A stretch of DNA of 64,000 bases, taken from assembly GCF_004795835.1 (NCBI RefSeq), contig NZ_CP039249.1, positions 2,579,001 through 2,643,000 on the forward strand, read 5' to 3'. The stretch's first letter is position 1. Every line of letters begins with the position of its first letter. A program made the translations under genes and the position numbers. The notes beneath the pieces are model-generated. The model did no database searches. It was not told the DNA's origin and saw only the letters and a list, made by a program, of their open reading frames with translations. Below are positions 21,590-36,048 of this stretch, piece after piece. This DNA is from Sphingomonas sp. PAMC26645. GTDB taxonomy: Bacteria > Pseudomonadota > Alphaproteobacteria > Sphingomonadales > Sphingomonadaceae.

Positions 21590-21638
21590 GCTTGGTCCCC
21601 CCGGGGATGGTTGCGTGGTGTGTAACGATGCGTGAGAG

Positions 21639-24038
21639 TTAGAATTTTGCGCCCAGCTCGACGCCGTAGAAGCGTGGCTCGCCGGCGATGTAGGTCGGGA
21701 TACCGAAGCCGCCGCCGGTGTTGCCCGCGTCGATCAGGTAGCGCTTGTTGGTCGCGTTCCGGACGAACCCGCCGACACTGTAGCGACCTTGCGCGAACTC
21801 GACCCCGGCGCGAGCGTTGACCAGCGTATAGCCGGGCGTGCTGATGGCCGGATTGTTCGGCAGCTCGAAGAACGCCTTTGTGCGGTAGGTGACGCTCGGC
21901 GTGGCGTAGACCGTCGCGCCGCCGACCGGCAGGCGGAGGATCACGCCGCCCGACGCGGTCGTGTCCGGCTGAAGGCGGAAGCGGTTGCCAGCGAATACGC
22001 CGTTCGCCGCTTCGTCGCCGATGCCGCCGTCGATATACGCAAATGTCCCGAATACCGAGAGATACGAGGCGAGCTTCAGATTGCCTTCGAGTTCGACGCC
22101 GAGGTTCTTGGCCGACCCGGCGCTCTGCGTCGTGGTCACGCCGTTGTTCGTCACCGACACCTGGAAGCCGTCATAGGTCTGGTAGAAGACCGATGCCGCG
22201 CCGCTGAACGGGCCGACGCGACCCTTGATGCCGCCTTCGTAGTTCCAGACGTTCTCCTGCGGCACGACTTGCAGGTTGGGACCGACGCCGAACGCGGTGC
22301 GCTGCGCGGCGAGCTGGACTACCGGCGAGCGGCGTCCTTTGCTGATCGTCGCGTAGAGATTGACCGCGTCGTTGAGCTTCAGCAGCGCGTTGAAGCGCGG
22401 CAGGATCGCGGTGAAGCTCTTCTCCGCAACGAACTTATTGCCATTGGTGTTGGCCGTACCAAGCAGGCTCGACTGGATACCGAGCGCTGCCAAGATTACC
22501 GAGTTCGGCTGGACCGACGAATAGCCCGACTGGCGATCCTCGATCAGGATGCGCGCGCCCGCGGTCAGTTCGAGCGCGGGTATTGGAATGTACGTTGCGT
22601 CAGCGAACACCGAGTAGGTGTCGTTGTTGCCGTAGTTCGTGAACTCCGCAGCGTAAGGTATTGCCGTTGCACGACCACCCGTAAGCGCTGCGGTTGCGCG
22701 CGTCGCGGTAACCGTGCCGTTCGGTGCAACACATCCGGTCCCGGTCGGGATGCCCGCGCCGTTCAGCGCCGAGCGGATCGGGGCGTAGGCGGGCGTGACC
22801 GAACAGGCGAGGTACGTGCCCTCTTCGGTCGCGAACGGGACGCGCTGGAAGCCGTTCTCGAAGAATGCGTTCCAGCCGACCGAGGCGCGGTACTTAGGCC
22901 CTTCGAAAGCAAAGCGGCTCTCATGACTCCACTGGTCGCCCTTCGCGTCCTCGGCGAACTCGAGATACGCGGCAGGGCCACCATCGGCGTCGAACACTTC
23001 GAGCGCATCGAATTTGCGATACCCGTTGACGGTGGTGAAGGTGATGCCCGGCGACACGTCCGCGGTGATCGTCAGGTTCGCGTCATAGACGTTGCGGTCG
23101 AGACCGAGCTTCCGCGCGCCGAGAACTGCGGCGCTGTACGGCGAGCCGGAGAGTTCCGCGTAGCCATAGTCACCGGTCTGGCCGCCGGTCGGGGCGTGCG
23201 CACGGCTCTTGAACGCGGTGCCGGGGTTGCGCTGTCCGTCATAAGTCAGGACGAGGTCGGCGGTGATGCTGTCGCTCGGGCGATAGCGGAGCGAACCGCG
23301 GATGCCGCGCTGGTCCTGGCCGTTCAGATCGTCCTGGTCGACGCCGCCCTGGTTCTGGTTCGGCACGTTCGCGTCGCCCGCGATGTTGCGGACGTAGCCC
23401 TTGCGATATTTATACGCGAAGGCGATGCGGCCGGCGAGCACGTCGTTGCCTGCATTCAAGAAACCCGACACCTGGGTGCGGTCGAAATTGCCGTACGTGC
23501 CGTTGATCGCGCCCGATACGCCAGGCTCTGGCTTGGCCGAGACGAGGCTGATCGCGCCGACCGCAGCCGCAGTGCCGAACAGGGTCGCCTGCGGACCCTT
23601 CACGACTTCGATCCGCGAGAGGTCGAACAGGTCCTGATACGCGCCGCGCGAACGGCTGATGTCGATGCCGTTGTAGTAGAGCGTGACGCGCGCGCCCTGC
23701 TGCGACGAGCCGTTGTCCGACGTGATGCCGCGGATCACGAAGCCCGGGTTGTTGGCGCTCTGCTCCTGGATCTGGAGACCGGGAATATAGGCAGCGACCT
23801 CACTCAGCGAGTTGACGCCGATCGACGCCATGCGGGCGCCGGTCAGCGCGGTGACGGTAATGGGGACGTCTTCGATCCGCTGTTCGCGCTTCTGCGCGGT
23901 GACGACGATCTCGTCGTCCGACGTTGCGGCCTCGGTTTCGGCTTGGGCAGTGCCTGGCGTGCCGGCTTGTGCGAGCGCCATGGTCGAGCAGGTCGTGGCG
24001 AGCGTCGCAACCGCGAGCCGCGTGAAGATACGTGTCAT
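21639..24038 (-). CDS. TonB-dependent outer-membrane receptor of the phosphate group
   Basis: A 799-residue TonB-dependent receptor. A signal peptide (cleavage near ALAQA, residue 25) precedes a plug with DDEIVVTAQKREQRIEDVPI, a TonB-box-like region, and RIEVVKGPQATLFGTAAAVG. The barrel follows and ends in LGAKF with terminal Phe. Its place between phoX and the divergent phoD suggests a role in phosphorus capture, for example uptake of phosphate esters or of the cation needed by PhoX. This is inference from context. 49 bases separate it from phoX, so the two are likely one transcript. Confidence 0.88.
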   Translation of the reverse strand: MTRIFTRLAVATLATTCSTMALAQAGTPGTAQAETEAATSDDEIVVTAQKREQRIEDVPITVTALTGARMASIGVNSLSEVAAYIPGLQIQEQSANNPGFVIRGITSDNGSSQQGARVTLYYNGIDISRSRGAYQDLFDLSRIEVVKGPQATLFGTAAAVGAISLVSAKPEPGVSGAINGTYGNFDRTQVSGFLNAGNDVLAGRIAFAYKYRKGYVRNIAGDANVPNQNQGGVDQDDLNGQDQRGIRGSLRYRPSDSITADLVLTYDGQRNPGTAFKSRAHAPTGGQTGDYGYAELSGSPYSAAVLGARKLGLDRNVYDANLTITADVSPGITFTTVNGYRKFDALEVFDADGGPAAYLEFAEDAKGDQWSHESRFAFEGPKYRASVGWNAFFENGFQRVPFATEEGTYLACSVTPAYAPIRSALNGAGIPTGTGCVAPNGTVTATRATAALTGGRATAIPYAAEFTNYGNNDTYSVFADATYIPIPALELTAGARILIEDRQSGYSSVQPNSVILAALGIQSSLLGTANTNGNKFVAEKSFTAILPRFNALLKLNDAVNLYATISKGRRSPVVQLAAQRTAFGVGPNLQVVPQENVWNYEGGIKGRVGPFSGAASVFYQTYDGFQVSVTNNGVTTTQSAGSAKNLGVELEGNLKLASYLSVFGTFAYIDGGIGDEAANGVFAGNRFRLQPDTTASGGVILRLPVGGATVYATPSVTYRTKAFFELPNNPAISTPGYTLVNARAGVEFAQGRYSVGGFVRNATNKRYLIDAGNTGGGFGIPTYIAGEPRFYGVELGAKF

Positions 24039-24120
24039 TAAGTCCCCCGTGTCGTTGCCGTCGCACTACGGGGGCGAGGTGACGTTTCGATGGCGTCTTC
24101 ATGAAAGCAAAATGACTATT

Positions 24121-24138
24121 CCGTAACGACGCTGTCAC
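24121..24138 (+). promoter_or_regulatory. candidate PHO box
   Basis: CCGTAAC (24121-24127) and CTGTCAC (24132-24138) are two 7-mers spaced 11 bases start to start, the geometry of PhoB sites (consensus CTGTCAT with a 4-base gap). The second matches at six of seven positions and the first at four. It lies 71 bases upstream of phoD and in the divergent region to the receptor. A weak match alone; the gene context gives it weight. Confidence 0.35.
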
Positions 24139-24208
24139 ATCGTTGCCGCCGGGGTGTCTTCGATCGTGGCTAGCAGGCGGGCAACAGCCGTTACGAAAGC
24201 CCGAGACG

Positions 24209-25888
24209 ATGACGATCAACCGCCGCGATGCGCTCAAGTATGCCCTGAAACTTACGGGCTCGGGTGCGACCCTCGCGCTTCCCGCGGTAGCGACACAAGC
24301 GGCCGACGCGGCGAAAGCGCGCTTCGATCACGGGGTGGCGAGTGGTGATCCTTCGGTCGACGGCGCCATTCTTTGGACGCGGGCGACACCGGTCGATGCG
24401 GCGCAGGCCGGCGACATCGCGCTGACCTGGCACGTCGCGGAGACCGAAGACGGCAAGCCGATCCGCTCGGGCACGGTCAAGGCCCGCGCGGCGCGCGACT
24501 TCACCGCCAAGGTCGAGGCGACCGGGCTCCAGCCGGGCCGCGAGTACCGCTATTGGTTCGATGCCGCGGACGGCACGCGCTCGCCGGTCGGCCGGCTCCG
24601 GACGCTGCCGAAGGGCAAGGTTGCCGACGTCGTGATGGCGGTCGTCTCGTGCCAGCTCTACGCGGGCGGGCTGTTCAACGCGTATGACGCGATCGCCAAG
24701 CTCGACCGGCTCGACGCCGTCCTGCACCTCGGCGACTATATCTACGAATACGGCGTCGACGGGTACGGCGCGGACATCGCCAAGAAGATCGGCCGTCTGG
24801 TCGAGCCGCGGCACGAGATCGTCAGCCTCGCCGACTACCGGATGCGCCACGCGCAGGTGAAGCGCGACGTCGACATGCAGGCCGCCCATGCGCGCGCTGC
24901 GTTCATCTGCGTGTGGGACGATCACGAGGTCGCCAACGACGACTGGATGCACGGTGCCGAGAACCACGATCCCAAGACCGAGGGCGACTGGGACGCGCGC
25001 AAGGCCGCCGCGATGCAGGCGTATTTCGAGTGGATGCCGATCCGCGATCCCAAGCCCAGCCAGCCTTGGGCGGCGATCAACCGCAGCTTCGATTTCGGCG
25101 ATCTCGCGACGCTGGTGATGGTCGAGACGCGGCTGCTGGCGCGCAGTCATCAGGTCGTTTCGAAGGGCGAGGCGATCACACCCGCAGAATACGCGCCGAT
25201 GCTGGCGGAACGCGCCCGGCCCGAACGCGAACTGCTCGGGCCGGCACAGCTTACCTGGGTCGAGAAGACGATGGCGGCGTCCGTGTCGGCGGGGAAGCCG
25301 TGGCAGGTGCTGGGCAACCAGATCGTGATGGCGAAGGTCGCTGGTCCCGACATGGAGCGGCAACTCGGACCGGTGAAATTCGGCGAGACGATGGCGAAGC
25401 TGCCGGCGATGTGGCGCGAGCGACTGGCGGCAGGCATCGCTTCGTACCGTGCCGGCATGCCGTTCGGCCTCGACAGCTGGGACGGCTATCCGCCCGCCCG
25501 CGAGCGCCTGTACGCGGCGTTCCGACGTGCGAAGTCGCGGCCGATCGTGCTGTCGGGTGACAGTCATGCCGCCTGGGCGAACGATCTGCACGACGACGCG
25601 GGCAAGCTGGTCGCGGTCGAGTTCGGCTGCACCGCGATCACCAGTCCGTCCTACGGTTCGTTGTTGCCGGGTATCGGCACATTGATCGCCGACGCCAACA
25701 AGGGCGAAGTGCGGTTCTGCGATCAGGACGCCAAGGGCTTCACGCTGCTGACGCTCACGCATGAGCAGGCGACCGCCGATTTCGTGACCGTGTCGACGGT
25801 GTTTGCCAAGCCGTTCACCCAAGCGACGGTGAAGCGGTTTCGTGCGCTCGCGGCTCGGCCCGAACTGCCGCTGGAAGAGATTGCCTAA
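24209..25888 (+). CDS. phoD: PhoD-type alkaline phosphatase/phosphodiesterase
   Basis: A 559-residue Tat-exported phosphatase. The twin-Arg signal INRRDALKYAL is at residues 3-13, with likely cleavage after ATQA near residue 31. The N-terminal beta domain begins at FDHGVASGDP. The metallophosphatase domain has VSCQLYAGG, HLGDYIYEYG, WDDHEVANDDW and SGDSHAAW, which hold the Fe/Ca ligands in PhoD. It hydrolyses phosphomonoesters and diesters in the periplasm. The ATG at 24209 begins the Tat signal; the frame extends to 24143 but would add residues before it. It is divergent from the receptor-phoX pair. Confidence 0.93.
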   Translation: MTINRRDALKYALKLTGSGATLALPAVATQAADAAKARFDHGVASGDPSVDGAILWTRATPVDAAQAGDIALTWHVAETEDGKPIRSGTVKARAARDFTAKVEATGLQPGREYRYWFDAADGTRSPVGRLRTLPKGKVADVVMAVVSCQLYAGGLFNAYDAIAKLDRLDAVLHLGDYIYEYGVDGYGADIAKKIGRLVEPRHEIVSLADYRMRHAQVKRDVDMQAAHARAAFICVWDDHEVANDDWMHGAENHDPKTEGDWDARKAAAMQAYFEWMPIRDPKPSQPWAAINRSFDFGDLATLVMVETRLLARSHQVVSKGEAITPAEYAPMLAERARPERELLGPAQLTWVEKTMAASVSAGKPWQVLGNQIVMAKVAGPDMERQLGPVKFGETMAKLPAMWRERLAAGIASYRAGMPFGLDSWDGYPPARERLYAAFRRAKSRPIVLSGDSHAAWANDLHDDAGKLVAVEFGCTAITSPSYGSLLPGIGTLIADANKGEVRFCDQDAKGFTLLTLTHEQATADFVTVSTVFAKPFTQATVKRFRALAARPELPLEEIA

Positions 25889-25987
25889 AACGATCCTCCG
25901 TTCGAAGAGGAACGGAAACCGGTCGCCGATCGCCAGGGTTACCGCTGACAATCAAAGTTTTTCCGCCGCAAAGTTCAATCGACTGTC

Positions 25988-26037
25988 AATTCCCATCCGT
26001 CCGGGGGATATTCATTCCATCGGACGGAGATGGGAAT
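25988..26037 (+). promoter_or_regulatory. inverted repeat covering the ribosome-binding site and start of the desaturase
   Basis: ATTCCCAT-CCGTCCG (25989-26003) pairs with CGGACGG-AG-ATGGGAAT (26021-26037): 15 base pairs with a 2-base bulge and a 17-base loop. In RNA the right arm contains the GGAG and both candidate ATGs (26030, 26036), so the hairpin would hide the start. As DNA it could also be a protein operator. Confidence 0.7.
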
Positions 26038-26929
26038 GCAGCGAGAGGCTTCGAGTTCGACGGTAGGATGGCCGACCGTCCTTCTGGCAGGTATCGTGTA
26101 CGGCGGATGGGTGGTCGCGACGGCGTGGCATGTGGTCATTCCGACGCCGTTGCTGGTGCTGATCGGCGGGTGGCTGCTCGCTTGGCAGGGATCGCTGCAG
26201 CACGAGGTCATTCACGGGCATCCGACGCGGATCCGCTGGATCAACGACGCGATCGGGTTCGCGCCGCTGTCGCTGTGGCTGCCATACCGCCTGTACCGCC
26301 GCAGCCATGTCGCGCATCACCGCGCGGAGGTCATCACCGATCCGCGGCATGACCCTGAGTCCCGCTACCGCGTGCAGGCGCGTGGTCTCGCCGCGGTCCT
26401 CGGCCGGCTTCAATCGACGCTTCTCGGTCAGATGATCTTCGGACCTGCGATCTCGGTCGGCCGCTTCTTCCTACAAGAGTCCCGCCGACTTGCGCTCGAA
26501 CCGGCGCGCGTCGCGCGCGATTGGGCACCGCACCTCGTCGCGGTCGCACTGGTGCTCTGGTGGCTCGGTCATGTCGGTCTTGGCCTCGGCCGTTACGTGC
26601 TGTGCTTCGTCTATCCGGGCATGGCGCTGACCATGGTGCGCTCCTATGCCGAGCACCGCGCCGATCTCGCAAGCCCCGGTCGCGCCGCCAGCGTCGAGCA
26701 TGGCGGGCTGCTCGGGCTGCTGTATCTCAACAACAATTTGCATGCCGCGCATCACGAGCGGCCCTCGCTCGCCTGGTACGACCTGCCAGCGTACCACCGA
26801 CATAACCGAGCCCGTTTCGCGGAGGCGGGGGCACCGATCTATCAGGGGTATGGCGAGATCGTACGGCGGTTCGCCTTCAGCGCGCATGACGACATGATCC
26901 ACCCCCTCCACCGCGAGCCCGTGTCTTGA
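26036..26929 (+). CDS. membrane fatty-acid desaturase-like di-iron enzyme
   Basis: A 297-residue integral membrane protein. The three His clusters of di-iron desaturases/hydroxylases are present: HEVIHGH near residue 60, HVAHH near 90 and HAAHH near 240. Hydrophobic segments at about 14-55, 78-90 and 165-210 give the usual four-helix layout. The oxidised substrate (acyl chain or another lipid) cannot be told. Of two in-frame ATGs (26030, 26036) the second has GGAG at a good distance. The region is covered by the hairpin at 25988-26037. Its stop overlaps the next gene (TTGA), so it heads a five-gene operon. Confidence 0.82.
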   Translation: MQREASSSTVGWPTVLLAGIVYGGWVVATAWHVVIPTPLLVLIGGWLLAWQGSLQHEVIHGHPTRIRWINDAIGFAPLSLWLPYRLYRRSHVAHHRAEVITDPRHDPESRYRVQARGLAAVLGRLQSTLLGQMIFGPAISVGRFFLQESRRLALEPARVARDWAPHLVAVALVLWWLGHVGLGLGRYVLCFVYPGMALTMVRSYAEHRADLASPGRAASVEHGGLLGLLYLNNNLHAAHHERPSLAWYDLPAYHRHNRARFAEAGAPIYQGYGEIVRRFAFSAHDDMIHPLHREPVS

Positions 26930-27723
26930 CGGGCCGGATCGCCTCGCTCGGGATGTACGATCACCCCGCGCAGCATGATGCCAACGACCGGCTGTGGTCG
27001 GCGATTGCCGCTGTCCTGCGCGAACGCGGTGTCGCGGAGGTGCCCGATCGGCTCGATCGAACGCGTTACGTCCATGCGATCTGGCGTGATCCGGCGCTGC
27101 TGTTCGGTCAGGCCTGTGGCTATCCGTTGATCGCCGATCCGACGCTGGATCTGCGCGTGATCGCGTTCCCGATCTACGCCGGGCGAGAGAGTGGCAGCGT
27201 GATCGTGGCGAGAGCGGACGATTCCCGCGGGTCGGTCTCGGCGTTTCGCGGTAGTCGCGCGGCCATCAACGATCGCCAGTCGAACACCGGCATGAACCTG
27301 TTCCGCGCGACTATCGCGCCGTTTGCGGGGCAGGGGGCGTTCTTTGCCGAGGTGGTCGAAACCGGAGCGCATCGGGCCAGCATCGTCGCGGTCGGGACGG
27401 GCAAGGCGGACCTCGCGGCGATCGACCGCGTGACCTATGCGACCATCGCACGGTTCGAGCCGGCGTTGGTCGCGCACCTGAAGATCGTCGCGCCGAGTCC
27501 TGCATCGCCGAGCCTGCCCTTCGTGACCGCCGCCGGGACCGACGCCGCAACTTTGGCGGCATTGCAAAGTGCGCTTGATCATGTCGCAGCCGATCCCGAT
27601 CTGGCGGCGGTACGCGAGACGCTGTTTCTCGCCGGGATCGTACCGGCCGAGCCGGACGCGCTGACGCCGATATCGACACTCGAAGCCGAGGCCGTCCGGG
27701 CCGGCTACCCCACGCTCCGCTGA
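26926..27723 (+). CDS. PhnD/SsuA-type substrate-binding protein without signal peptide
   Basis: A 265-residue protein resembling the phosphonate/phosphite ABC-transporter binding proteins: IASLGMYDHP at the start, then LLFGQACGYPLIA and the ligand-loop region NDRQSNTGMNLFR. No export signal is visible and no ABC permease or ATPase is nearby, so it probably acts in the cytoplasm rather than in transport. It begins at TTG inside the desaturase stop (TTGA); an ATG nine codons later (26953) is an alternative. Function in this operon is unknown; binding a small acidic or amino metabolite is a guess. Confidence 0.65.
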   Translation: MTGRIASLGMYDHPAQHDANDRLWSAIAAVLRERGVAEVPDRLDRTRYVHAIWRDPALLFGQACGYPLIADPTLDLRVIAFPIYAGRESGSVIVARADDSRGSVSAFRGSRAAINDRQSNTGMNLFRATIAPFAGQGAFFAEVVETGAHRASIVAVGTGKADLAAIDRVTYATIARFEPALVAHLKIVAPSPASPSLPFVTAAGTDAATLAALQSALDHVAADPDLAAVRETLFLAGIVPAEPDALTPISTLEAEAVRAGYPTLR

Positions 27724-27724
27724 C

Positions 27725-28687
27725 ATGAAGGACAAGGCCGTGTCATCAGTATCCGACCCGATCGACCTCGCCACGACGATCGACGAACTGCGCAGCGCGC
27801 GTCGCGCCTGGCGGCAGGAACAGGACGGCCGGCATAGCGTCGCGCGCTTTCCGTCGCTGGACGAGACCGGTCGCGCGCTCGACGATCTCGTCGCGGCGCT
27901 GTTTCCCGGGCGGCTCGGCATGTTCCCAGGTCCGGTCGAGCGCGAGGATGCGTTCGTCGAGACGCGGCTGCGACAGTCGCTGGAACGGTTGCAACGGCAG
28001 GTCGAACGCGAATTTGCCTATTGGCAGGAAGAGGCGGTGCTGTCGTTCGACGTCAGCCATGCGAGCATGATCATCGGCCTGTTCTGCGCGGAACTCGGAC
28101 CCATCCGCGAACTGGTCGACGACGACGTCCGCGCGGCGTTCCTCGGCGATCCGGCGGCCCGCAGCGCGGACGAGATCCTGATCTGCTACCCCGGCATCGT
28201 CGCGATCCTGTATCACCGGATCGCGCACGCGCTCTACGGCCTCGGCGCTCCGATCGTCGCACGGATCATCTCCGAACTCGCCAACAACCGCACCGGTATC
28301 GATATCCACCCCGGCGCGACGATCGGCCGCAGCTTCTTCATCGATCACGGCACCGGCGTCGTGATCGGCGAGACCGCGATCATCGGCGATCGCGTGCAGA
28401 TCTACCAGCACGTCACGCTCGGCGCGCGCAGTCCGCTCGGCGTGACCGACGTGTCGGCGCGCGAACGGCTGGCGCGGCATCCGATCGTCGAGGACGACGT
28501 CGTGATCTATGCCGGCGCGACGATCCTCGGCCGCGTGACGATCGGGCAGGGTGCGACGATCGGCGGCAATGTCTGGCTGCTCGAGGACGTGCCCGCGGGG
28601 AGCGTCGTCGCCCAGCCGACCGCTGTGATCCTCGCGGGCGATGCCGCCGACCAGTTGCACGAGACGCTGAGAGGGCGCGCCGCATGA
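27725..28687 (+). CDS. serine O-acetyltransferase family protein (EpsC/CysE-like)
   Basis: A 320-residue protein. The helical N-terminal region (to about residue 190) contains CYPGIVAILYHRIAHALYGLG; the left-handed beta-helix follows with DIHPGATIGRSFFIDHGTG, VVIGETAIIGDRVQIYQHVT and GGNVWLLEDVPAGS. These are typical of serine acetyltransferases, which make O-acetylserine from serine and acetyl-CoA. It is longer at the N-terminus than housekeeping CysE. No cysteine synthase is nearby, so O-acetylserine may feed a specialised product rather than cysteine. It starts one base after the preceding stop and overlaps the next gene (ATGA). Confidence 0.85.
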   Translation: MKDKAVSSVSDPIDLATTIDELRSARRAWRQEQDGRHSVARFPSLDETGRALDDLVAALFPGRLGMFPGPVEREDAFVETRLRQSLERLQRQVEREFAYWQEEAVLSFDVSHASMIIGLFCAELGPIRELVDDDVRAAFLGDPAARSADEILICYPGIVAILYHRIAHALYGLGAPIVARIISELANNRTGIDIHPGATIGRSFFIDHGTGVVIGETAIIGDRVQIYQHVTLGARSPLGVTDVSARERLARHPIVEDDVVIYAGATILGRVTIGQGATIGGNVWLLEDVPAGSVVAQPTAVILAGDAADQLHETLRGRAA

Positions 28688-29454
28688 TGCGCTTCGCCTG
28701 CTGTCGGCGAGAGGATGGGCCACCGAAACCGGTGATCGGCGTGTTGTGTTGCAACGAAGTGGTCGATCGTCCGATCCAGGCGGTCGCCACCCGCTTCGTC
28801 GAGCCGCTGGTGCGCTATGCCGGCGCCACCGTCCTGCTGGTGCCGGCCGTGGCGGATGCGATGGACGCGCGGGCGTTGGCCGGACGGCTCGACGGCCTGT
28901 TGCTGACTGGATCGCGGTCTAACGTCGCAGGTGCGCGCTATGACAAGTCCGATGCGGCCGACGATGCGCTCGATCTGGACCGCGATGCGGTGGCGCTCGA
29001 ACTCGCGGGCCGGATGATCGAGGCAGGGCGGCCGGTGTTCGGCATCTGCCGCGGGTTGCAGGAATTGAACGTGCTGTTCGGCGGTACGCTGACCGATGCG
29101 CTGGACGATGGCCATCACCGATCGACCGACGACGCGACCGCGTACGAGACGCTGTTCGACCATGTCCACGACGTGAGACTGCGATCGGGCGGGATGCTCG
29201 CTGCCGCGATCGCCGAGCCCAGCATCTCGGTCACGTCGGTTCACCGCCAGGGTATAGATCGGCTGGGGGAGGGGCTCAGCGTCGAGGCGCATGCGGTTTC
29301 GGACGGGCTGGTCGAGGCTTTCTCGGCGCGCCCATGCGGCGGCGACGTGCTCGCGGTCCAATGGCATCCCGAATGGGACGTTGCAGCCAGCGCATCCAGC
29401 CGCGCATTCTTTTCACTTATCGGCCAGTCGCTTGGGACCTATCGGGACCGATGA
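28684..29454 (+). CDS. peptidase C26 / gamma-glutamyl hydrolase-like class I amidotransferase domain protein
   Basis: A 256-residue stand-alone GATase1 protein of the PuuD group. The nucleophile Cys122 is in GICRGLQELN and the His228/Glu230 pair in QWHPEW completes the triad. PuuD-type enzymes cleave gamma-glutamyl amides, for example gamma-glutamyl-GABA. Two adjacent ATGs (28684, 28687) are in frame; the first overlaps the acetyltransferase stop. In this operon it could remove a gamma-glutamyl group from an intermediate or an imported compound. The substrate is not predictable. Confidence 0.82.
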   Translation: MMRFACCRREDGPPKPVIGVLCCNEVVDRPIQAVATRFVEPLVRYAGATVLLVPAVADAMDARALAGRLDGLLLTGSRSNVAGARYDKSDAADDALDLDRDAVALELAGRMIEAGRPVFGICRGLQELNVLFGGTLTDALDDGHHRSTDDATAYETLFDHVHDVRLRSGGMLAAAIAEPSISVTSVHRQGIDRLGEGLSVEAHAVSDGLVEAFSARPCGGDVLAVQWHPEWDVAASASSRAFFSLIGQSLGTYRDR

Positions 29455-29519
29455 CTGCGACCGCTCGTTTGGTTCGCACGGAGATCGTCGCAGAGCGATC
29501 CACTAACAGGGACACTATC

Positions 29520-32009
29520 ATGACTGCTTATCGTACCGCGTTGACGCTCGCCGCCTCGACCCTCGCCTTCGCCAGCGCGCATGTTGCTTATGCGCAGGAC
29601 GTGCCCGCGCAAACAGCGACCGCGCCTGCCGCAGACCCCGCTGCGGCGCCCGACACGGGAGACGATATCATCGTCACGGGCACCCGCGCGGTTGGTCGGT
29701 CGCGGCTCGACAGCGCGTCGCCGGTCGACGTGCTGAGTTCGGCCGCGATCCAGCGCCAGGGGACGACCGAACTGGGCGCGGCGCTGTCGGCAATCGCGCC
29801 GTCGATCGATTTCCCGCGGCCGTCGGCGGTCGACGGCACCGACGCGATCCGCCCGGCAACGTTGCGCGGCCTTTCGCCCGACCAGACGCTGGTGCTGGTC
29901 AACGGCGTGCGCGGCCATACTGCGGCGCTGCTCAACGTCGGCGGGTCGGTCGGGCGCGGCTCGGCTGCGGTCGATCTGAATACGATCCCGACAGTGGCGC
30001 TCGATCGTATCGAGGTGCTGCGTGACGGGGCGTCCGCACAATATGGCTCGGATGCGATCGCCGGCGTCGTCAACCTGCGGCTGCGCGAAGCCCGGTCGGG
30101 CGGTGGCATGACCGTCAATTACGGCTTCTACAACACCGATATCGACACCGCGCGCGGCAGCCGCGGCACGAACGGCGAGCATGCGCTGACCGTGTCCGGC
30201 TGGCAGGGCATCGGCTTTGGCGAGGACGGCTTCCTGACCGTTTCGGGCGAGTATCTGGATCGCCAGGCGACCAACCGCGCCGACTTCGACACGCGCGCGC
30301 TGGTCAAAATTCCCGGGACGCCGGGTCGTGTGACCGGGCTCTTCGGTGATCCCAAGGTCGAGCAATACAGCATCTTCGCCAACGCCGGCACGACGCTGAC
30401 CGGCACGTGGAAGCTGTACGGCTGGCTCGGCTATCAGGACCGCGACACGCGCAGCGCGGCCTTCCCGCGATTGCCGCTGCAGTCGGACCCGGTAGCAGTC
30501 GCGCGACTGGAGCTGGCAGGACTTTCCGATGGCTTCCTGCCGCTGATCAACACCAAGTCGCGCGACATCAACTCGGCCATCGGCATCAAGGGCGTGGTCG
30601 CCGACTGGAACGTCGACCTGAACGCCAGCTATGGCCGCAACAAGATCGGGTTCCGGACGCTGGACTCCGCGAACTACGCCTATGGCCGCACCACGCAGCG
30701 CGACTTCTCCGACGGTGCGCTGATCTACGACCAGTACATCGTCGGGCTCGACGTCGATCGCAAATTCGACGTGTTGCAGGGCGTCAACGTCGCGTTCGGG
30801 CTCGAAGGGCGCCGCGAGGGGTTCAAGATCCAGTCGGGCGAACTCGCATCCTATGGCTATCCCGCCGATAGGACAGTGACCGGCGCATTGCCGACCGCAC
30901 CTCCCGGCGCGCAGGGCTTTGGCGGATTCTCGCCGGACAACGCGATCGAGCGGAGCCGTCGTAATGGCAGCGTCTATCTCGATGTAGAAGCGCAGGTGAC
31001 GGACAAGTTGCTGCTCGGGCTCGCCGGACGCGGGGAAGACTATTCCGATTTCGGTTCGACCGGCACTGGCAAGGTCTCCGCGCGCTATGACTTCGCGCGC
31101 TGGTTTGCATTGCGTGGAACGGCGTCGACCGGCTTCCGCGCGCCGGCGCTTCAGCAACAGTATTTCACCTCGGTCGCAACCGTCATTCAAAACGGAAACC
31201 CAGTTCAGACCGGAACCTACCCATCGGTAAGCCCTATTGCAGCTAGGCTTGGAGGTCTTCCGCTCGAGCCTGAGAAGTCGACCAATTTTTCGGTTGGTAC
31301 GGTCTTTCGGTTCGGCGGGTTCGACCTGACCGTCGATGCGTACCGCATCCGCATCCGCAACCAGATCGGTCTTTCCGAAAACATCACCACGTCGCCGACC
31401 CAATCCGCTGCGGTCAATGCGCAGATCCTCAGCTTGCTAGCCGGATCCGGGGCAACTGCAGCGCGGTTCTTCGTCAACGGCATCGCCTCGACCACCAAGG
31501 GCATCGACGCCGTCGCGCATTACCGCCTGCCGACCGATGCTGCTGGGACGTTCGACCTGACGATCGCCGGCAACGTCAACGACGTGAACGTGACGCACGT
31601 GCCGACATCGACCTCGACGCTCAACCCGGCACCGACACTGTTCGCCCGCAACCGCATCGAATCGCTGGAGAACGGCACGCCGGGCGAGAAGGTGACCGGA
31701 TCGATCGACTGGTCGCTCGACCAGCTCGGCGCACTCGCCCGTGTCACCTATTATGGCGACGTGACTCAACCCGGCACGACCGCGGCCGGCGACGTGCACA
31801 GCGGCAAGCACCTGATCACCGATTTCGAACTCCGCTACCAGGCGAAGAAGGGCGCACAGATCGGCCTTGGCGTCAGCAACCTGTTCGACGTCTATCCCGA
31901 CGCGACGAGCATCGCGAACAACCCGACCGGGGTCATCGGCTACCCCTATTACTCGCCGTTCGGGTTCAACGGCCGCTACGTCTACGCCCGTGCAGGCCTG
32001 AGCTGGTGA
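29520..32009 (+). CDS. TonB-dependent outer-membrane receptor, last gene of the accessory operon
   Basis: An 829-residue receptor. The signal peptide cleaves near HVAYAQ (residue 24), a Pro/Ala-rich stretch follows, then DDIIVTGTRA and the plug with LVLVNGVRGHTAALLNVGG and RIEVLRDGASAQYGSDAIAG. The barrel ends in AGLSW with terminal Trp. It begins 65 bases after the hydrolase gene in the same direction with no terminator between, so it is probably in the operon. It may import the substrate or product of the upstream enzymes. No clear ribosome-binding site is seen before the ATG; upstream in-frame ATGs lie within the previous gene. Confidence 0.88.
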   Translation: MTAYRTALTLAASTLAFASAHVAYAQDVPAQTATAPAADPAAAPDTGDDIIVTGTRAVGRSRLDSASPVDVLSSAAIQRQGTTELGAALSAIAPSIDFPRPSAVDGTDAIRPATLRGLSPDQTLVLVNGVRGHTAALLNVGGSVGRGSAAVDLNTIPTVALDRIEVLRDGASAQYGSDAIAGVVNLRLREARSGGGMTVNYGFYNTDIDTARGSRGTNGEHALTVSGWQGIGFGEDGFLTVSGEYLDRQATNRADFDTRALVKIPGTPGRVTGLFGDPKVEQYSIFANAGTTLTGTWKLYGWLGYQDRDTRSAAFPRLPLQSDPVAVARLELAGLSDGFLPLINTKSRDINSAIGIKGVVADWNVDLNASYGRNKIGFRTLDSANYAYGRTTQRDFSDGALIYDQYIVGLDVDRKFDVLQGVNVAFGLEGRREGFKIQSGELASYGYPADRTVTGALPTAPPGAQGFGGFSPDNAIERSRRNGSVYLDVEAQVTDKLLLGLAGRGEDYSDFGSTGTGKVSARYDFARWFALRGTASTGFRAPALQQQYFTSVATVIQNGNPVQTGTYPSVSPIAARLGGLPLEPEKSTNFSVGTVFRFGGFDLTVDAYRIRIRNQIGLSENITTSPTQSAAVNAQILSLLAGSGATAARFFVNGIASTTKGIDAVAHYRLPTDAAGTFDLTIAGNVNDVNVTHVPTSTSTLNPAPTLFARNRIESLENGTPGEKVTGSIDWSLDQLGALARVTYYGDVTQPGTTAAGDVHSGKHLITDFELRYQAKKGAQIGLGVSNLFDVYPDATSIANNPTGVIGYPYYSPFGFNGRYVYARAGLSW

Positions 32010-32131
32010 TTAAATCATAGTAGTACGATAGGGTATTGCGTTCGGTCGCATCGCTGGGTAGCTTTCGGTTCCAGGATCGACTTCGCGCGTTGCGGTCGTA
32101 ATTCTGCACTAGTCATCACGGAGACCATTCG

Positions 32132-32350
32132 ATGAAGAAGATCACGATCGTGCCAATGATTGCAGTCCTGGCACTTAGCCTCGCCGCTTGCACGAAGCCC
32201 GCAGCGACCGAGAACGTTACCGACATTCAGTCGAACACGGTCGTCGAAGAGCCGGACGCGAATCTTTCCGCGGTGGACGGTATCGAAACGAGCAACTCGG
32301 CCGATCTCGAGAACTCGGTCGATACGAATTCGAGCGGCAACGCGCTCTGA
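32132..32350 (+). CDS. small lipoprotein
   Basis: A 72-residue protein: positively charged MKK, hydrophobic stretch, and lipobox LAAC with Cys20 as the acylation site. The mature 53 residues are acidic, rich in Asn, Ser, Asp and Glu, and have no Cys. GGAGA lies a suitable distance before the ATG. No domain is recognised. Short lipoproteins of this type are frequent in sphingomonads and are of unknown function. A hairpin follows at 32372-32401 and a terminator at 32415-32456. Confidence 0.75.
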   Translation: MKKITIVPMIAVLALSLAACTKPAATENVTDIQSNTVVEEPDANLSAVDGIETSNSADLENSVDTNSSGNAL

Positions 32351-32371
32351 TCGATGACTTGAAATTGTAAC

Positions 32372-32401
32372 AGATGGCTTGGTATGGTAATCGAGCCATC
32401 T
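32372..32401 (+). other. hairpin after the lipoprotein gene
   Basis: AGATGGCT (32372-32379) pairs with AGCCATCT (32394-32401), 8 base pairs and a 14-base loop. There is no U tract after it, so it may stabilise the 3' end of the lipoprotein mRNA rather than terminate it. Confidence 0.5.
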
Positions 32402-32414
32402 GTACGAAGACTCG

Positions 32415-32456
32415 AAAGGCGACGTACTTTCCGTTTTAGGGGAGTCGTCGCCTTTT
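32415..32456 (+). terminator. intrinsic terminator of the small lipoprotein gene
   Basis: AAAGGCGACG (32415-32424) pairs perfectly with CGTCGCCTTT (32446-32455), 10 base pairs, followed by TTGTATTTTT-like sequence. It is the first strong terminator on the plus strand after the lipoprotein gene. Confidence 0.8.
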
Positions 32457-32653
32457 GTATTTTTGAGCGATCTAAGTACGTTTTCTGGCCGATGCATTTC
32501 GACGCAATTTATACTCTACTCACCGAGGGTGATGAATAACTCTATTCCTATTTGATAAGTGGGTATTACAACGGGGCAACGTCAAGGCGAAGTGAAGCTC
32601 CCTAGACGGAACCTAGTGGTCCAGCGGAGCCCTTCTGCTGGGCCACTATTTTT
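32457..32653 (+). ncRNA. possible small RNA ending in a strong intrinsic terminator
   Basis: This stretch of the 377-base gap is AT-richer than its surroundings and has no credible ORF. It ends in a textbook terminator: TAGTGGTCCAGC (32614-32625) pairs with GCTGGGCCACTA (32637-32648) and is followed by five Ts. The preceding gene already has its own terminator at 32415-32456, so this one serves no known gene and implies an independent plus-strand transcript. No promoter could be fixed and no RNA family is recognised. It could also be a decayed remnant. Confidence 0.35.
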
Positions 32654-32727
32654 GAGCGCGAGGTTTGGAAGAGTTCGCGGCGTGCCGGCATTTGGCAGGG
32701 GCCGTATTCTCGAGTATTCGCTATTAG

Positions 32728-33312
32728 TCAGCTGGTCTTCGGTACCGCGTTGGATCGGCGTCCGCGCCAATAGCGGATCGCGGTCATCACCACCGCAACA
32801 ACGACTGCGAGGATCGCAACGCCCGCCAACTTGTGCTTCGGCATGATGCTGTGGACCGCGTCGAGCAGCGTATCCCCGAACAGATAGCCGATGCCGGTGA
32901 ACATCACGCCCCAGACCACCGCGGAGATCGCGTTGAGCATCATGAACGTGCGTGCGGGGACATGCGACGTGCCGATCGCTATCGGGCTGATCGTGCGCAG
33001 GCCGTAGAGGAAGCGGAAGCCGAGGATGAAGACGGTCGGATGGCGTTCCAGCGTGTCGAGTGCCTTGGCGAAGGCCGGCTTGGCGGCGATCTTGCGGACG
33101 CGGGCGGTGTCGCGGTAGCGGCGCCCGGCGAGGAAGAAGAGTTGGTCCGCGGCGAACGATCCCGCGACCGCCGCGGCGGCGCTGCCCCAGAGCGGCAAGA
33201 GGTGCTGATGCGCCAACACGCCGCCGGTCACGACCGCGGTTTCGCCTTCAAGCCCCGCACCCAGGAATATCGCGGCGAGGCCGTATTGGGCGATGAGCGT
33301 TTCGATCGACAT
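32728..33312 (-). CDS. DedA-family membrane protein
   Basis: A 194-residue protein of the DedA/SNARE-associated family, inner-membrane flippase-like proteins linked to undecaprenyl-phosphate and lipid recycling. The family's acidic motif is seen in GAGLEGETAVV, the Arg-rich loop in FLAGRRYRD and the FRFLYGLRTISPIAIG segment. Four or so hydrophobic stretches are present. MSIETLIAQYGL matches the family N-terminus, so I start at 33312; the ATG at 33354 would add 14 residues. It is monocistronic, facing the small-RNA candidate. Confidence 0.85.
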   Translation of the reverse strand: MSIETLIAQYGLAAIFLGAGLEGETAVVTGGVLAHQHLLPLWGSAAAAVAGSFAADQLFFLAGRRYRDTARVRKIAAKPAFAKALDTLERHPTVFILGFRFLYGLRTISPIAIGTSHVPARTFMMLNAISAVVWGVMFTGIGYLFGDTLLDAVHSIMPKHKLAGVAILAVVVAVVMTAIRYWRGRRSNAVPKTS

Positions 33313-33398
33313 CGCTCGCCCTTGCCGCAGCGCGGAGTTCTCCGCCAGTATCATTTATCCGCCTCGCTACAGGCGGTTATCGACGTCGATGCGGGCTG

Positions 33399-33899
33399 CT
33401 ATCGACCGAGATAGTCCATCTTGCCGATCGGCACGCCGCGCATCCGTAACAGGGCGTAGGCGGTCGTGATGTGGAAATAGAAATTGGGCAGCACGAACCC
33501 GAGCACGTAGTTCTGCCCCGTAAAGTCCAACGTCCGGCTGGGCGTGACGATCGTGACGACAGCGTCTTCCTTGCCGTCGATCGCCTCGCGCGGGACGCCA
33601 TCGAGAAACGCAACCGTTGCGGCGATGCGCTGCTGCAGCGCTGCGAAACTCGTTTCGTCGTCGGCCATCGCGATCGTCGGGACGCCGCCAAGCCGGACCA
33701 TCGCGCCCTTGGCCGTATCGCTCGCCCGCTGGACCTGCGCGGTCAGTGGCGCCATGTCGTCGATCAGGCGCGTGCCGAGCATGTCCGCCTCGGCAATGCC
33801 GTGCTCCTGTGCATAGGCTTCGCCCGATTTCAGGATCGCCGAAAGACTGGCGAAACCGCGGCGAAACGCGGGGACGGTGAGGTCATAGAGCTGGGTCAT
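33399..33899 (-). CDS. DUF1993 family protein
   Basis: A 166-residue protein with the features of DUF1993: N-terminal LTVPAFRRGFASLSAIL, the mid-region QVQRASDTAKGAMVRL and C-terminal GFVLPNFYFHITTAYALLR. The family is predicted to be a four-helix DinB-like bundle; the expected His and acidic residues in NFYFHIT are consistent. No function is established. The ATG at 33899 gives the normal family start; the reading further upstream to 34037 overlaps the glycosylase gene. It is 22 bases after that gene and probably co-transcribed. Confidence 0.8.
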   Translation of the reverse strand: MTQLYDLTVPAFRRGFASLSAILKSGEAYAQEHGIAEADMLGTRLIDDMAPLTAQVQRASDTAKGAMVRLGGVPTIAMADDETSFAALQQRIAATVAFLDGVPREAIDGKEDAVVTIVTPSRTLDFTGQNYVLGFVLPNFYFHITTAYALLRMRGVPIGKMDYLGR

Positions 33900-33921
33900 G
33901 CACGCAGGCGTAGGCGCGCAA

Positions 33922-34425
33922 TCACGTCCAGTCGAGGAGGAACGCGGCGAGCTGGCTCCAGGCGGGCTGCTTTGCCGCGACGCCGATCGTGTGCAGCGGG
34001 CTGCTGGAGGGAAGCGCGACGACGCTCGGTCCAGCAAAGTTCGGTCCGAGCAGCTTCAGGCCCTGCTTGAGCGCGGTGCCGCCGTTGAAGGCGACTGCGC
34101 GAAGCTTCGGTAATCGGCCGATGAGCGCGACGATGTCGTTGCCTTCGGCGTCGAGGATAGCCGCATCGCTGCTTCCCGCCCGCCGCGCCGAGCCGATCAC
34201 GTCCCACAGCGCCACGCCGCTCGCCCGCAACGCCGCCACCCGATCCTCATAGTCGAGCGTGACGAGGTCGCAGCCGACGACCGGCGACATCAGTTGCCAG
34301 AACTGGTTCTGCGGATGCGCATAATAGCGCTGCGCGGCAAGCGACCGGTCGCCCGGCAGGCTGCCCAGAACCAGAACCCGCGCTTTAGAATCGAAAACCG
34401 GCGGAAACGAGTGCTTGAGCGACAT
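33922..34425 (-). CDS. DNA-deoxyinosine glycosylase (UDG superfamily, family 6 type)
   Basis: A 167-residue small glycosylase. It shows VLVLGSLPGDRSL near residue 18, RYYAHPQNQFWQLM, the ALWDV segment and the C-terminal ALPSSSPLH motif, which together mark the hypoxanthine-DNA glycosylase group rather than classical uracil glycosylases. It would remove deaminated adenine (hypoxanthine) from DNA. It lies upstream of the DUF1993 gene in the same direction. Divergent from the kaiC-like gene. Confidence 0.85.
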   Translation of the reverse strand: MSLKHSFPPVFDSKARVLVLGSLPGDRSLAAQRYYAHPQNQFWQLMSPVVGCDLVTLDYEDRVAALRASGVALWDVIGSARRAGSSDAAILDAEGNDIVALIGRLPKLRAVAFNGGTALKQGLKLLGPNFAGPSVVALPSSSPLHTIGVAAKQPAWSQLAAFLLDWT

Positions 34426-34536
34426 TAAGATCCCCGGGCTGCCACGACCGCAAGACTATGCGATACGCCGGTTATAACCTAGGGTCGGTACATATGGTCG
34501 CACCACGCGCGGTACGATCACAGGAAGGACTGCCAC

Positions 34537-36048
34537 TTGGCACTGAACGGACAACTACCGGCGCTCGCACGGACCGGTATCGACGGGCTCGACGACATTC
34601 TGAATGGGGGGCTGACACCGGACCGAATGTACCTTGTCGAGGGTACGCCCGGCACGGGCAAGACGACGCTCGGGCTCGGCTTCCTGCTCGCCGGCGCATC
34701 GGTGGGCGAGGCGGGTCTGTATATCACGCTGGCCGAGACCGAAGTCGAGTTGCGCGCGGTGGCGCAGACGCATGGCTGGTCGCTGGACCCGCTGACGCTG
34801 TTCGAGATGGTACCGGCCGATGGCCTCGGCGAAGACCATGAACAGACGTTGCTGCATCCGAGCGAGGTCGAACTCGGCGAGACGATCCGCGACGTGATGG
34901 CGAAGGTCGATGAGCTTCGGCCCAAGCGCGTGGTGATCGACAGCCTGTCCGAACTGCGCCTGCTCGCGCAAAGCCCGATCCGCTATCGCCGCCAGATCCT
35001 CGCGCTCAAGCACTTCTTCTCGACGCGCGCCTGCACCGTGCTGTTCCTCGACGACAAGAGCGGATCGGGCAGCGATCTCCAGTTGCACAGCATCGCGCAC
35101 GGCGTGATTTCGCTCGAACAGACCTTGTCAGGGTTTGGCGCGCAACGTCGACGCCTGCACGTCGTCAAGATGCGCGGCGTTCGGTATCGCGGCGGCTATC
35201 ACGACTTCGAGATCGAGCGCGGTGGGCTGTGCGTCTACCCGCGCCTCGTCGCGTCCGAGCACGTCATGAAATATTCGGACGAGGCCGTTTCGACCGGCTC
35301 GACCGAACTCGATACGTTGTTGGGTGGCGGCCTGATTCCGGGCACCGCGACGTTGCTGACGGGGCCTGCCGGTGTCGGCAAGACGACCGCGTCGGTCCAG
35401 TCGGTGATCGCAGCGCTGGAGCGAGGCGAGCGCGCGGCGTACTTCCTGTTCGACGAGCGCTTGCCGACGTTGCTGAAGCGCAGCGCGTCGCTCGGCATGG
35501 ACCTGATGCCGTTCGTCGAGAACGGGCAGCTCGAGCTGCGGGCGATCGATCCCGCCGAGATGTCGCCAGGCGAGTTCTCCGGCGCGGTGCGGGCCGCGGT
35601 CGAGCAGCACAAGGCGAAGATCGTCGTGATCGACAGCCTCAATGCCTACCTCCAGGCGATGCCGAACGAGCAGTTCCTGATCCTGCAGATGCACGAGATG
35701 CTGACGTATCTCGGTCAGAAGGGGATCGTCAGCCTGCTGATCCTTGGCCTGCACGGGATCACCGGAGACGTTCGCTCTGACGTCGACCTCAGCTATCTGT
35801 CCGATACGATCGTCCAGCTCCGCTATTTCGAGGCGCACGGCGAGGTGCGGCAGGCGATTTCGGTCATCAAGACGCGTACCGCACGGCACGAACGCACGAT
35901 CCGGGAGTTTCAGATCGGTAGCAACGGATTGCTGGTCGGCGAGCCCCTTCGCGAATTCCAGGGCGTGTTGACCGGCGTTCCGACATTCTCGGGCGAAGGA
36001 AAGACGTTGATGGCCAGTCGGATGGGGATGCAGGACTCGCGCGTCTGA
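34537..36048 (+). CDS. KaiC-like double RecA ATPase
   Basis: A 503-residue KaiC-family protein with two RecA-type domains, Walker A motifs GTPGTGKTT (36-44) and GPAGVGKTT (276-284). The CI catalytic region reads TLAETE near residue 64-69 and CII has LFDERL near 304-309. The site matching the cyanobacterial KaiC phosphorylation pair is Ser419-Tyr420, so only the Ser is conserved. No kaiA or kaiB is nearby. The start is TTG with AGGAAGGA upstream. It is one base from the histidine kinase gene, a layout seen in other alphaproteobacteria where KaiC acts with signalling partners in stress rather than a clock. Confidence 0.88.
   Translation: MALNGQLPALARTGIDGLDDILNGGLTPDRMYLVEGTPGTGKTTLGLGFLLAGASVGEAGLYITLAETEVELRAVAQTHGWSLDPLTLFEMVPADGLGEDHEQTLLHPSEVELGETIRDVMAKVDELRPKRVVIDSLSELRLLAQSPIRYRRQILALKHFFSTRACTVLFLDDKSGSGSDLQLHSIAHGVISLEQTLSGFGAQRRRLHVVKMRGVRYRGGYHDFEIERGGLCVYPRLVASEHVMKYSDEAVSTGSTELDTLLGGGLIPGTATLLTGPAGVGKTTASVQSVIAALERGERAAYFLFDERLPTLLKRSASLGMDLMPFVENGQLELRAIDPAEMSPGEFSGAVRAAVEQHKAKIVVIDSLNAYLQAMPNEQFLILQMHEMLTYLGQKGIVSLLILGLHGITGDVRSDVDLSYLSDTIVQLRYFEAHGEVRQAISVIKTRTARHERTIREFQIGSNGLLVGEPLREFQGVLTGVPTFSGEGKTLMASRMGMQDSRV

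Follow-up and report, generated by a model that had tools for sequence, protein, structure and literature searches.

Genes and features of the locus

We analysed a five-gene operon of Sphingomonas sp. PAMC26645 and the region immediately downstream of it, which lie in a stretch of 64 kb (bases 2579001–2643000 of the single-contig genome of 4.28 Mb). This whole stretch is called the window, and positions are window positions unless stated otherwise. The five genes are co-directional on the + strand and code for a membrane protein of the desaturase superfamily (DES), a protein related to AioX and PhnD (PHND), a serine O-acetyltransferase (SAT), a gamma-glutamyl hydrolase (GGH) and a TonB-dependent receptor. 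These genes and their junctions had been described in an initial annotation of the window and were recovered as such, with the families upheld by Pfam and NCBIfam. Beyond them, we recognised a gene for a small lipoprotein and a putative small RNA, each lying 3' of a further copy of the operator predicted upstream of the operon. The features are as follows:

25987..26012, + strand: predicted operator 1 (CAATTCCCATCCGTCCGGGGGATATT), 5' of the five-gene operon; matrix score 27.6, the best in the window
26030..26929, + strand: DES, desaturase-superfamily membrane protein (PF00487, E 2.3e-32)
26926..27723, + strand: PHND, cytosolic protein with an AioX/PhnD-like oxyanion-binding fold, without signal peptide (PF12974, E 7.3e-21)
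27725..28687, + strand: SAT, EpsC-type serine O-acetyltransferase (NF041874, 168 bits, cut-off 150)
28684..29454, + strand: GGH, gamma-glutamyl hydrolase with a class-I amidotransferase fold (PF07722, E 9.5e-52)
29520..32009, + strand: TonB-dependent receptor, almost without Met and Cys (PF07715 and PF00593)
32011..32036, + strand: predicted operator 2, weaker, 5' of the lipoprotein gene; matrix score 15.5, the third in the window
32132..32350, + strand: lipoprotein of 72 amino acids with a lipobox-like LAAC, no Pfam match
32542..32567, + strand: predicted operator 3 (CTATTCCTATTTGATAAGTGGGTATT), 5' of the small RNA; matrix score 25.7
about 32568..32657 (about 90 nt), + strand: putative small RNA, a hairpin with the core GGCGAAGTGAAGCTCCCT followed by an intrinsic terminator (32614–32648)

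The DES gene offers two ATG codons at 26030 and 26036, and the ribosome site is better placed for the second one, which the initial annotation had taken as the start and where translation possibly begins. PHND begins with a TTG codon within a TTGA overlap with the end of DES, a single base separates PHND from SAT, the SAT-GGH junction is an ATGA overlap, and the receptor gene starts 65 bases past GGH. A hairpin at 25996–26028 (TTCCCATCCGTCCG / CGGACGGAGATGGGAA) covers the ribosome site of DES in this strain, but it was dropped as a regulatory element because it is not conserved in L029–L031. According to the list of open reading frames, Pfam and NCBIfam, none of the operon genes codes for a cysteine synthase, an ABC transporter or a non-ribosomal peptide synthetase (NRPS), which agrees with the initial annotation, and neither a scaffold-building enzyme nor an exporter or a sensor kinase is found among them.

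A predicted dyad operator at three sites of the locus

One conserved, predicted dyad operator occurs three times at the locus, ahead of the operon, of the lipoprotein gene and of the RNA. An expectation-maximisation motif search over 54 DES-upstream regions, from which L017, L038 and L049 had been removed beforehand, returned the motif (C)AATTCCYAT-N6-RRTRGATATT, which is also visible by eye and nearly palindromic at some loci (L046, L050). When scored with a matrix from 33 training regions of the Sphingomonas type, which include L055, whose record is titled Arthrobacter, and L044, a metagenome-assembled genome of Sphingomonadales, 30 of the 33 exceeded the 99th percentile of 2160 shuffles. 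In the three regions below this threshold (L013, L014, L037), the operator is located inside an over-long gene call. The best unrelated site of the window scored 5.8, far below the three sites of the locus. The conserved dyad upstream of DES was also searched as the exact pattern AATTCCYAY-N6-RRTRGA, which matched the complete genome twice, in both cases at the locus (operators 1 and 3), compared to one match of the reversed control pattern. In ten relatives, 23 exact matches were obtained versus none with the reversed pattern. Several rhizobial DES-upstream regions contain a related, weaker form of the motif.

The 23 matches in the relatives represent 21 distinct sites, because two palindromes were counted twice. 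Nine of these sites belong to operons with one or more of the following: monooxygenases of the SsuD or NtaA/DmoA type, TauD dioxygenases, SfnB-like oxidoreductases, an SsuC-like permease, NMT1-like binding proteins, an FMN reductase, a rhodanese and a sigma-54 activator. Another five sites precede DES and one precedes SAT, whereas single sites were found at a FAD protein (PF13454, named from the homologue in G032), a lipoprotein gene and a peroxiredoxin with a 1-Cys-type C-terminal domain. At two further sites, a receptor is present but no sulfur gene was recognised, and the last one, an exact operator on a contig of 4 kb (L153, G064:C499), has no called gene behind it. The receptor/monooxygenase locus of G066 was assigned by homology to a gene of the PAMC26645 genome. 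In that genome itself, a site with one mismatch precedes a receptor gene adjoining an SsuD-like monooxygenase (L168). Another site, of 21.5 bits and at about 1.934 Mb of the genome, is flanked by a TlyA-like gene (named by eye) and by an alpha/beta hydrolase, which shares 33–44% identity with those beside DES in relatives. As judged from these gene assignments, the predicted operator marks genes for the utilisation of sulfonates, taurine and sulfone-type compounds as well as sulfur-stress genes in related genomes.

The operon consists of two conserved gene pairs and an optional receptor

We surveyed one genome per prokaryotic species with an alignment of 23 PHND sequences, which confirmed at least 557 stretches of PHND homologues and gave 80 loci; together with ten loci from individually chosen genomes, 90 loci were compared. 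Their genes were predicted by a codon-model gene finder and grouped by sequence clustering; gene starts are approximate, and some neighbour names rest on sequence clusters or sequence reading instead of family searches. Two places are represented twice (L013 = L038, L016 = L049), and L022, L029–L031 and L043 are near-identical, hence the locus counts are not independent.

DES is present at 78 of the 90 loci. PHND is anchored at 87 loci, and at 57 of these, DES lies immediately 5' of it on the same strand. Among 295 Sphingomonas genomes, 75 contain PHND (E ≤ 0.001), 73 contain DES (E ≤ 1e-20) and 73 contain both, and no genome of the genus has DES without PHND. DES is located directly upstream of 74 of the 76 PHND matches in the genus; of the two unpaired ones, the first lies at the end of a contig and the second has an E-value of 1.7e-4. 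DES and PHND are a near-inseparable pair in this genus. The second pair is formed by SAT and GGH, which occur at 20 and 17 of the 90 loci, respectively (two places being double-counted), with GGH adjoining SAT in all 17 cases. SAT-GGH is divergent from DES-PHND in L016, L017 and L049 and lies upstream of it in L044. The receptor family (cluster c6) was found at 11 of the 90 loci. The operon is therefore composed of the two pairs DES-PHND and SAT-GGH plus an optional receptor. The gene order of the operon recurs in relatives; the co-occurrence across sphingomonads proposed as a check in the initial annotation holds for the two pairs, whose genes belong together, but the order of all five genes is limited to a subset of Sphingomonas.

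The genes next to DES-PHND at the homologous loci include further sulfur genes, as in L055 (a sulfatase, a formylglycine-generating enzyme, TauD and an SfnG-like monooxygenase) and L076 (a MetQ-like binding protein and a luciferase-type monooxygenase). Several other arrangements recur as well. Near DES-PHND in L015, L055, L058 and L092, an SfnG-like monooxygenase follows a RimK-like ATP-grasp gene. In L052, L057, L072 and L088 (Jiella, Aurantimonas, Fulvimarina; names taken from L052 and transferred to the rest by cluster), DES-PHND follows sarcosine-oxidase-like genes and a PLP enzyme of Cys/Met metabolism (PF01053), lies opposite an oligopeptide-type ABC transporter and in some of these loci is accompanied by a Rieske gene resembling glycine betaine monooxygenase; this setting perhaps serves the catabolism of a sulfur-containing betaine. 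A regulator of the XRE type of about 280 amino acids (HTH_3 match in L061) is encoded between divergent DES and PHND genes in L061, L067, L069, L070, L081, L095 and L108, and PHND may work together with it there. The FAD protein of family PF13454 recurs beside DES-PHND (L016:6524–7918, L044:7537–8886 and L046:7021–8364, the latter with its own operator), and a small Ser_hydrolase protein (PF06821) recurs beside DES (L016:9730–10323 and relatives, clusters c24, c42 and c75); PAMC26645 encodes a relative of it as well, at the 21.5-bit operator site near 1.934 Mb.

Properties of the encoded proteins

The DES protein shows the three histidine boxes for a di-iron site which characterise the PF00487 superfamily, namely HEVIH (58–62), HVAHH (93–97) and HAAHH (238–242), and their histidines are invariant in 31 homologues. 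Its matches to NCBIfam models are far below the cut-offs. The structure model (pLDDT 91.3) is closest in fold to two subunits of a chloroplast motor complex and to the alkane hydroxylase AlkB. The PHND model (pLDDT 93.3) resembles ArrX and AioX most closely, with Foldseek E-values of 6.7e-18 to 8.2e-15 and TM scores of 0.75–0.83 for the respective entries. An export signal was not found in PHND, as the model starts at strand 1 and there is no hydrophobic N-terminus. The ligand pocket of AioX is reported to be composed of Tyr88, Cys106, Tyr131, Ser161, Ser163, His192 and Asp210 (PMC5908839). Relative to this list, Cys106, Ser161, Ser163, His192 and Asp210 correspond to Cys64, Ser119, Thr121, His149 and Asp167 of PHND, with Ser163 replaced by Thr, whereas Tyr131 is not kept and Tyr88 is beyond the aligned stretch. 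Cys64 is invariant in 23 sequences. PHND was also considered as a PhnD-type binding protein of a phosphonate ABC transporter, which we rejected because it lacks an export signal, the operon contains no ABC genes, and the match to TIGR03431 is far below the cut-off (43.5 vs. 261.1 bits). From these data, we infer that DES is a membrane-bound di-iron oxygenase with histidine boxes and that the chemistry of the pair is that of this oxygenase combined with a cytosolic, AioX-like oxyanion-binding protein.

SAT scores below the cut-off of the cysE model TIGR01172 (171.6 vs. 210.65). Because a second gene resembling serine acetyltransferases is present in the genome (genome positions 3410260–3410736; 208.1 bits vs. 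the same cut-off), the SAT of the operon is an accessory enzyme. GGH stays below the cut-off of the PuuD model NF008471 (123.9 vs. 266 bits) and retains Cys122 as a candidate nucleophile as well as an HPE motif at 228–230. The receptor contains two Met and no Cys in 829 amino acids, amounting to 0.15% Met+Cys. We found 67 plug-domain matches in the genome (G000), which is a very large set of TonB receptors; 30 of these receptors were measured, at about 640–750 residues each, and among these 30, the operon receptor showed the lowest Met+Cys content and the receptor behind the one-mismatch site the fifth lowest. The mean Met+Cys content was also low for 17 SAT homologues (1.11%) and for DES (1.56%), compared to a background of 2.56% in 284 other proteins of the loci. 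The low sulfur content is support for sulfur sparing, not proof of it.

A putative small RNA and the lipoprotein gene

No gene is called after operator 3, but a hairpin and a strong terminator are present. The core of 18 bases is found exactly in 18 of the 295 Sphingomonas genomes, all of which belong to the 73 genomes containing DES-PHND. The RNA is unlinked to the operon in at least seven of these 18 genomes (G018, G110, G188, G208, G034, G212, G214), where it is found on a different contig or at a distance of more than 200 kb. The best operator-like site starts 43–46 bases upstream of the core in all 18 genomes, with a score of at least 15 bits in 13 of them. We compared 20 copies of the RNA, which represent 18 distinct genomes (L219/L043 and L221/L032 each derive from the same genome). 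Compensatory changes were observed for four of the 20 predicted base pairs, all of them in the terminator stem, and the first hairpin is nearly invariant. A reading frame of at least 15 amino acids starting with ATG runs across the core in seven of the 20 copies, which is probably coincidental, as the other 13 have none. A covariance model detected weaker copies in L016, L017, L173, L044 and L046 (E 1.5e-7 to 0.004), each of them located behind a small lipoprotein gene, and other Sphingomonas encode small lipoproteins similar to that of 72 amino acids next to SAT-GGH or next to the RNA. Because the copies follow either lipoprotein genes or an operator of their own, the element seems to exist either as the 3' end of a lipoprotein mRNA or as a separate unit.

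A search of Rfam at the gathering score gave no match in window positions 20000–36000, and riboswitches or other Rfam elements were therefore discarded for this region; a single match beside the RNA was at chance level (E 1.2). The RNA looks like a new family. Among the matches listed from open PMC papers, we found no publication on this gene set or on the RNA.

Proposed role in sulfur starvation and alternative readings

In the habitats of leaf-dwelling and soil sphingomonads, sulfur is mostly organic. On the evidence of the operator and its associated genes, the genes described here very probably belong to a sulfur-starvation regulon, and the locus itself is likely to be an island for scavenging organosulfur compounds under these conditions. 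The operon, the lipoprotein gene and the RNA would represent three transcription units, switched on by a transcription factor when sulfate or cysteine is short. The receptor poor in Met and Cys would import an organosulfur compound, and DES would hydroxylate or desaturate a lipophilic organosulfur substrate beside its C-S bond, making the sulfur releasable. PHND would bind a sulfur oxyanion or a sulfonate in the cytosol with its pocket of Cys64, Ser119, Thr121, His149 and Asp167, acting as a carrier, a sensor or a partner enzyme. We regard this assignment of DES as an oxygenase acting next to C-S bonds, with PHND as its oxyanion-binding partner, as tentative and somewhat more doubtful than not.

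SAT would provide O-acetylserine, which is the acceptor for freed sulfide and often a starvation signal, and GGH would act on glutathione or on gamma-glutamyl S-substituted cysteines, cleaving their gamma-glutamyl bond so that cysteine is recycled. For these two roles in sulfur starvation, we see about an even chance. The release of cysteine by GGH would resemble the situation in sulfur-starved plants, where a glutathione-degrading enzyme is reported to rise (PMC10243980). In the initial annotation, simple cysteine metabolism was judged insufficient to account for the gene set, which is correct in part: the formation of O-acetylserine and the release of cysteine from gamma-glutamyl compounds fit sulfur starvation, but they do not account for the biochemistry of DES and PHND. 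Finally, the small RNA may adjust translation during sulfur shortage.

The same annotation had suggested a serine-derived, gamma-glutamyl-linked product, possibly lipid-modified or a metallophore. SAT would then supply O-acetylserine, GGH would trim a gamma-glutamyl intermediate, DES would oxidise it and the receptor would recover the product, which would be in line with the functions of the families and with the overlapping, co-directional genes. However, the operon contains neither a scaffold-building enzyme nor an exporter, and most DES-PHND loci are devoid of SAT and GGH. Because the operator is common to the DES operon and the sulfonate and taurine genes of relatives, sulfur scavenging is indicated rather than a metallophore, and the neighbours at homologous loci point in the same direction. 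We consider such a biosynthetic function highly improbable and discarded a metallophore or phosphonate pathway, given the missing scaffold, exporter and ABC genes and the operator shared with sulfur genes. PHND may also be read as a sensor of arsenic or phosphorus oxyanions like AioX, ArrX or PhnD, with the locus serving arsenic or phosphonate metabolism. ArrX and AioX are indeed its closest solved relatives, and five pocket positions of AioX are matched, but the missing sensor kinase and ABC genes, the lack of a signal peptide, the lost Tyr131 and the operator in common with sulfonate genes render this very unlikely. A further alternative is membrane remodelling under sulfur starvation, with DES desaturating or hydroxylating a lipid and PHND binding a phospho- or sulfo-headgroup, by which the sulfur of membranes or sulfolipids would be spared or recycled. 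It would agree with the PF00487 membership of DES, the fold similarity to the chloroplast motor complex subunits and AlkB, the link to the sulfur regulon and the acyl-CoA catabolism genes at four rhizobial loci. However, DES is strictly paired with an oxyanion-binding protein of the cytosol and lies beside C-S-cleaving oxygenases at several loci, which rather suggests a soluble sulfur product, and no lipid-synthesis gene was recognised among the recurrent clusters annotated, which cover part of the neighbours. We therefore judge membrane remodelling to be unlikely.

Several observations weigh against the proposed role in sulfur scavenging. DES could act on lipids, and the genes adjoining DES-PHND in the four rhizobial loci (L093, L102, L105, L107) are those of leucine and acyl-CoA metabolism; the sulfur genes seen next to DES-PHND elsewhere are raw observations, not set against random loci. 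Most NCBIfam names of the operator-linked and neighbouring genes are based on scores below the curated cut-offs, with TIGR03860 above. Only five of 21 held-out regions, mostly from other genera, passed the matrix test, and the tested regions of Jiella/Aurantimonas and Novosphingobium failed. The site near the SsuD-like gene of PAMC26645 has one mismatch and scores less than 14 bits, and at two mismatches, the pattern showed no excess in this genome (49 matches vs. 49 with the reversed control), so the two-mismatch sites were discarded as evidence. Operator scores are weak at five of the 18 RNA copies (8 to 11.5 in four, 1.7 in one), and a scan for the sigma-70 consensus revealed no promoter at the operators. 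With a mean of 2.88% Met+Cys, GGH homologues are not depleted in sulfur, PHND is only slightly low (2.02%), and TonB receptors are generally low in Met and Cys. As to the regulator, CysB was tested and rejected, as no orthologue was found in the genome (best match 23% identity, E 6.6e-17). Likewise, a LysR protein encoded divergently from ssuC in two genomes was rejected as the common regulator, being absent from the PAMC26645 genome at 1e-20.

Taken further, sulfur scavenging at this locus would suggest that sphingomonads, and perhaps other Alphaproteobacteria, possess a sulfur-starvation regulator other than CysB, whose regulon includes a new two-part organosulfur oxygenase and a new, sulfur-economising family of small RNAs. 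In this oxygenase, a di-iron protein of the membrane would be tied obligately to an AioX-like oxyanion-binding protein of the cytosol, whose pocket cysteine is invariant. We put this forward as a possibility whose odds are below even. If the proposed role in sulfur scavenging holds, the widespread DES-PHND pair would be a testable enzyme of sulfur acquisition, the operator would offer a handle on the sulfur regulator, and the new small RNA would tie sulfur shortage to translation. The two proteins would also need other names, as "fatty acid desaturase" and "phosphonate ABC transporter protein" would be misleading on function.

Comparison with known systems

The sulfate-starvation regulons of Pseudomonas, controlled by CysB and SfnR, contain the genes ssu, tau, sfn and lsfA. 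The genes behind the predicted operator resemble them in the sulfonate-type ABC transporters, FMNH2-dependent monooxygenases, TauD, SfnB-like proteins and a sigma-54 activator, as well as in the 1-Cys-type peroxiredoxin, but differ in that no CysB orthologue was found in the PAMC26645 genome. DES-PHND, SAT-GGH, receptors poor in Met and Cys, the lipoprotein and the small RNA are not known to belong to the Pseudomonas regulons. With AioX and ArrX, and likewise PhnD and PtxB, PHND shares the fold, and of the six AioX pocket positions within the aligned stretch, five are retained. Unlike these proteins, it is cytosolic, paired with DES and encoded in an operon without an ABC or kinase gene, and it has lost the residue equivalent to Tyr131.

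GGP1 of plants has a class-I amidotransferase fold. The cytosolic degradation of glutathione in plants involves GGP1/GGP3 and ChaC/GGCT2;1; sulfur deprivation is reported to induce the ChaC-type enzyme, and GGP1 to act under full nutrition, not mainly in starvation (PMC10243980). In contrast to these enzymes, GGH is a bacterial, PuuD-like enzyme of family C26 with a predicted substrate and is linked to a serine acetyltransferase. The putative RNA has counterparts in the general organisation of bacterial small RNAs. These act in trans and derive from 3' untranslated regions or are independent; it likewise is short, combines a conserved hairpin with an intrinsic terminator and, depending on the species, is located directly after a lipoprotein gene or behind its own operator. 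It differs from them in having no match in Rfam 15 and in being associated with a predicted operator of sulfur starvation.

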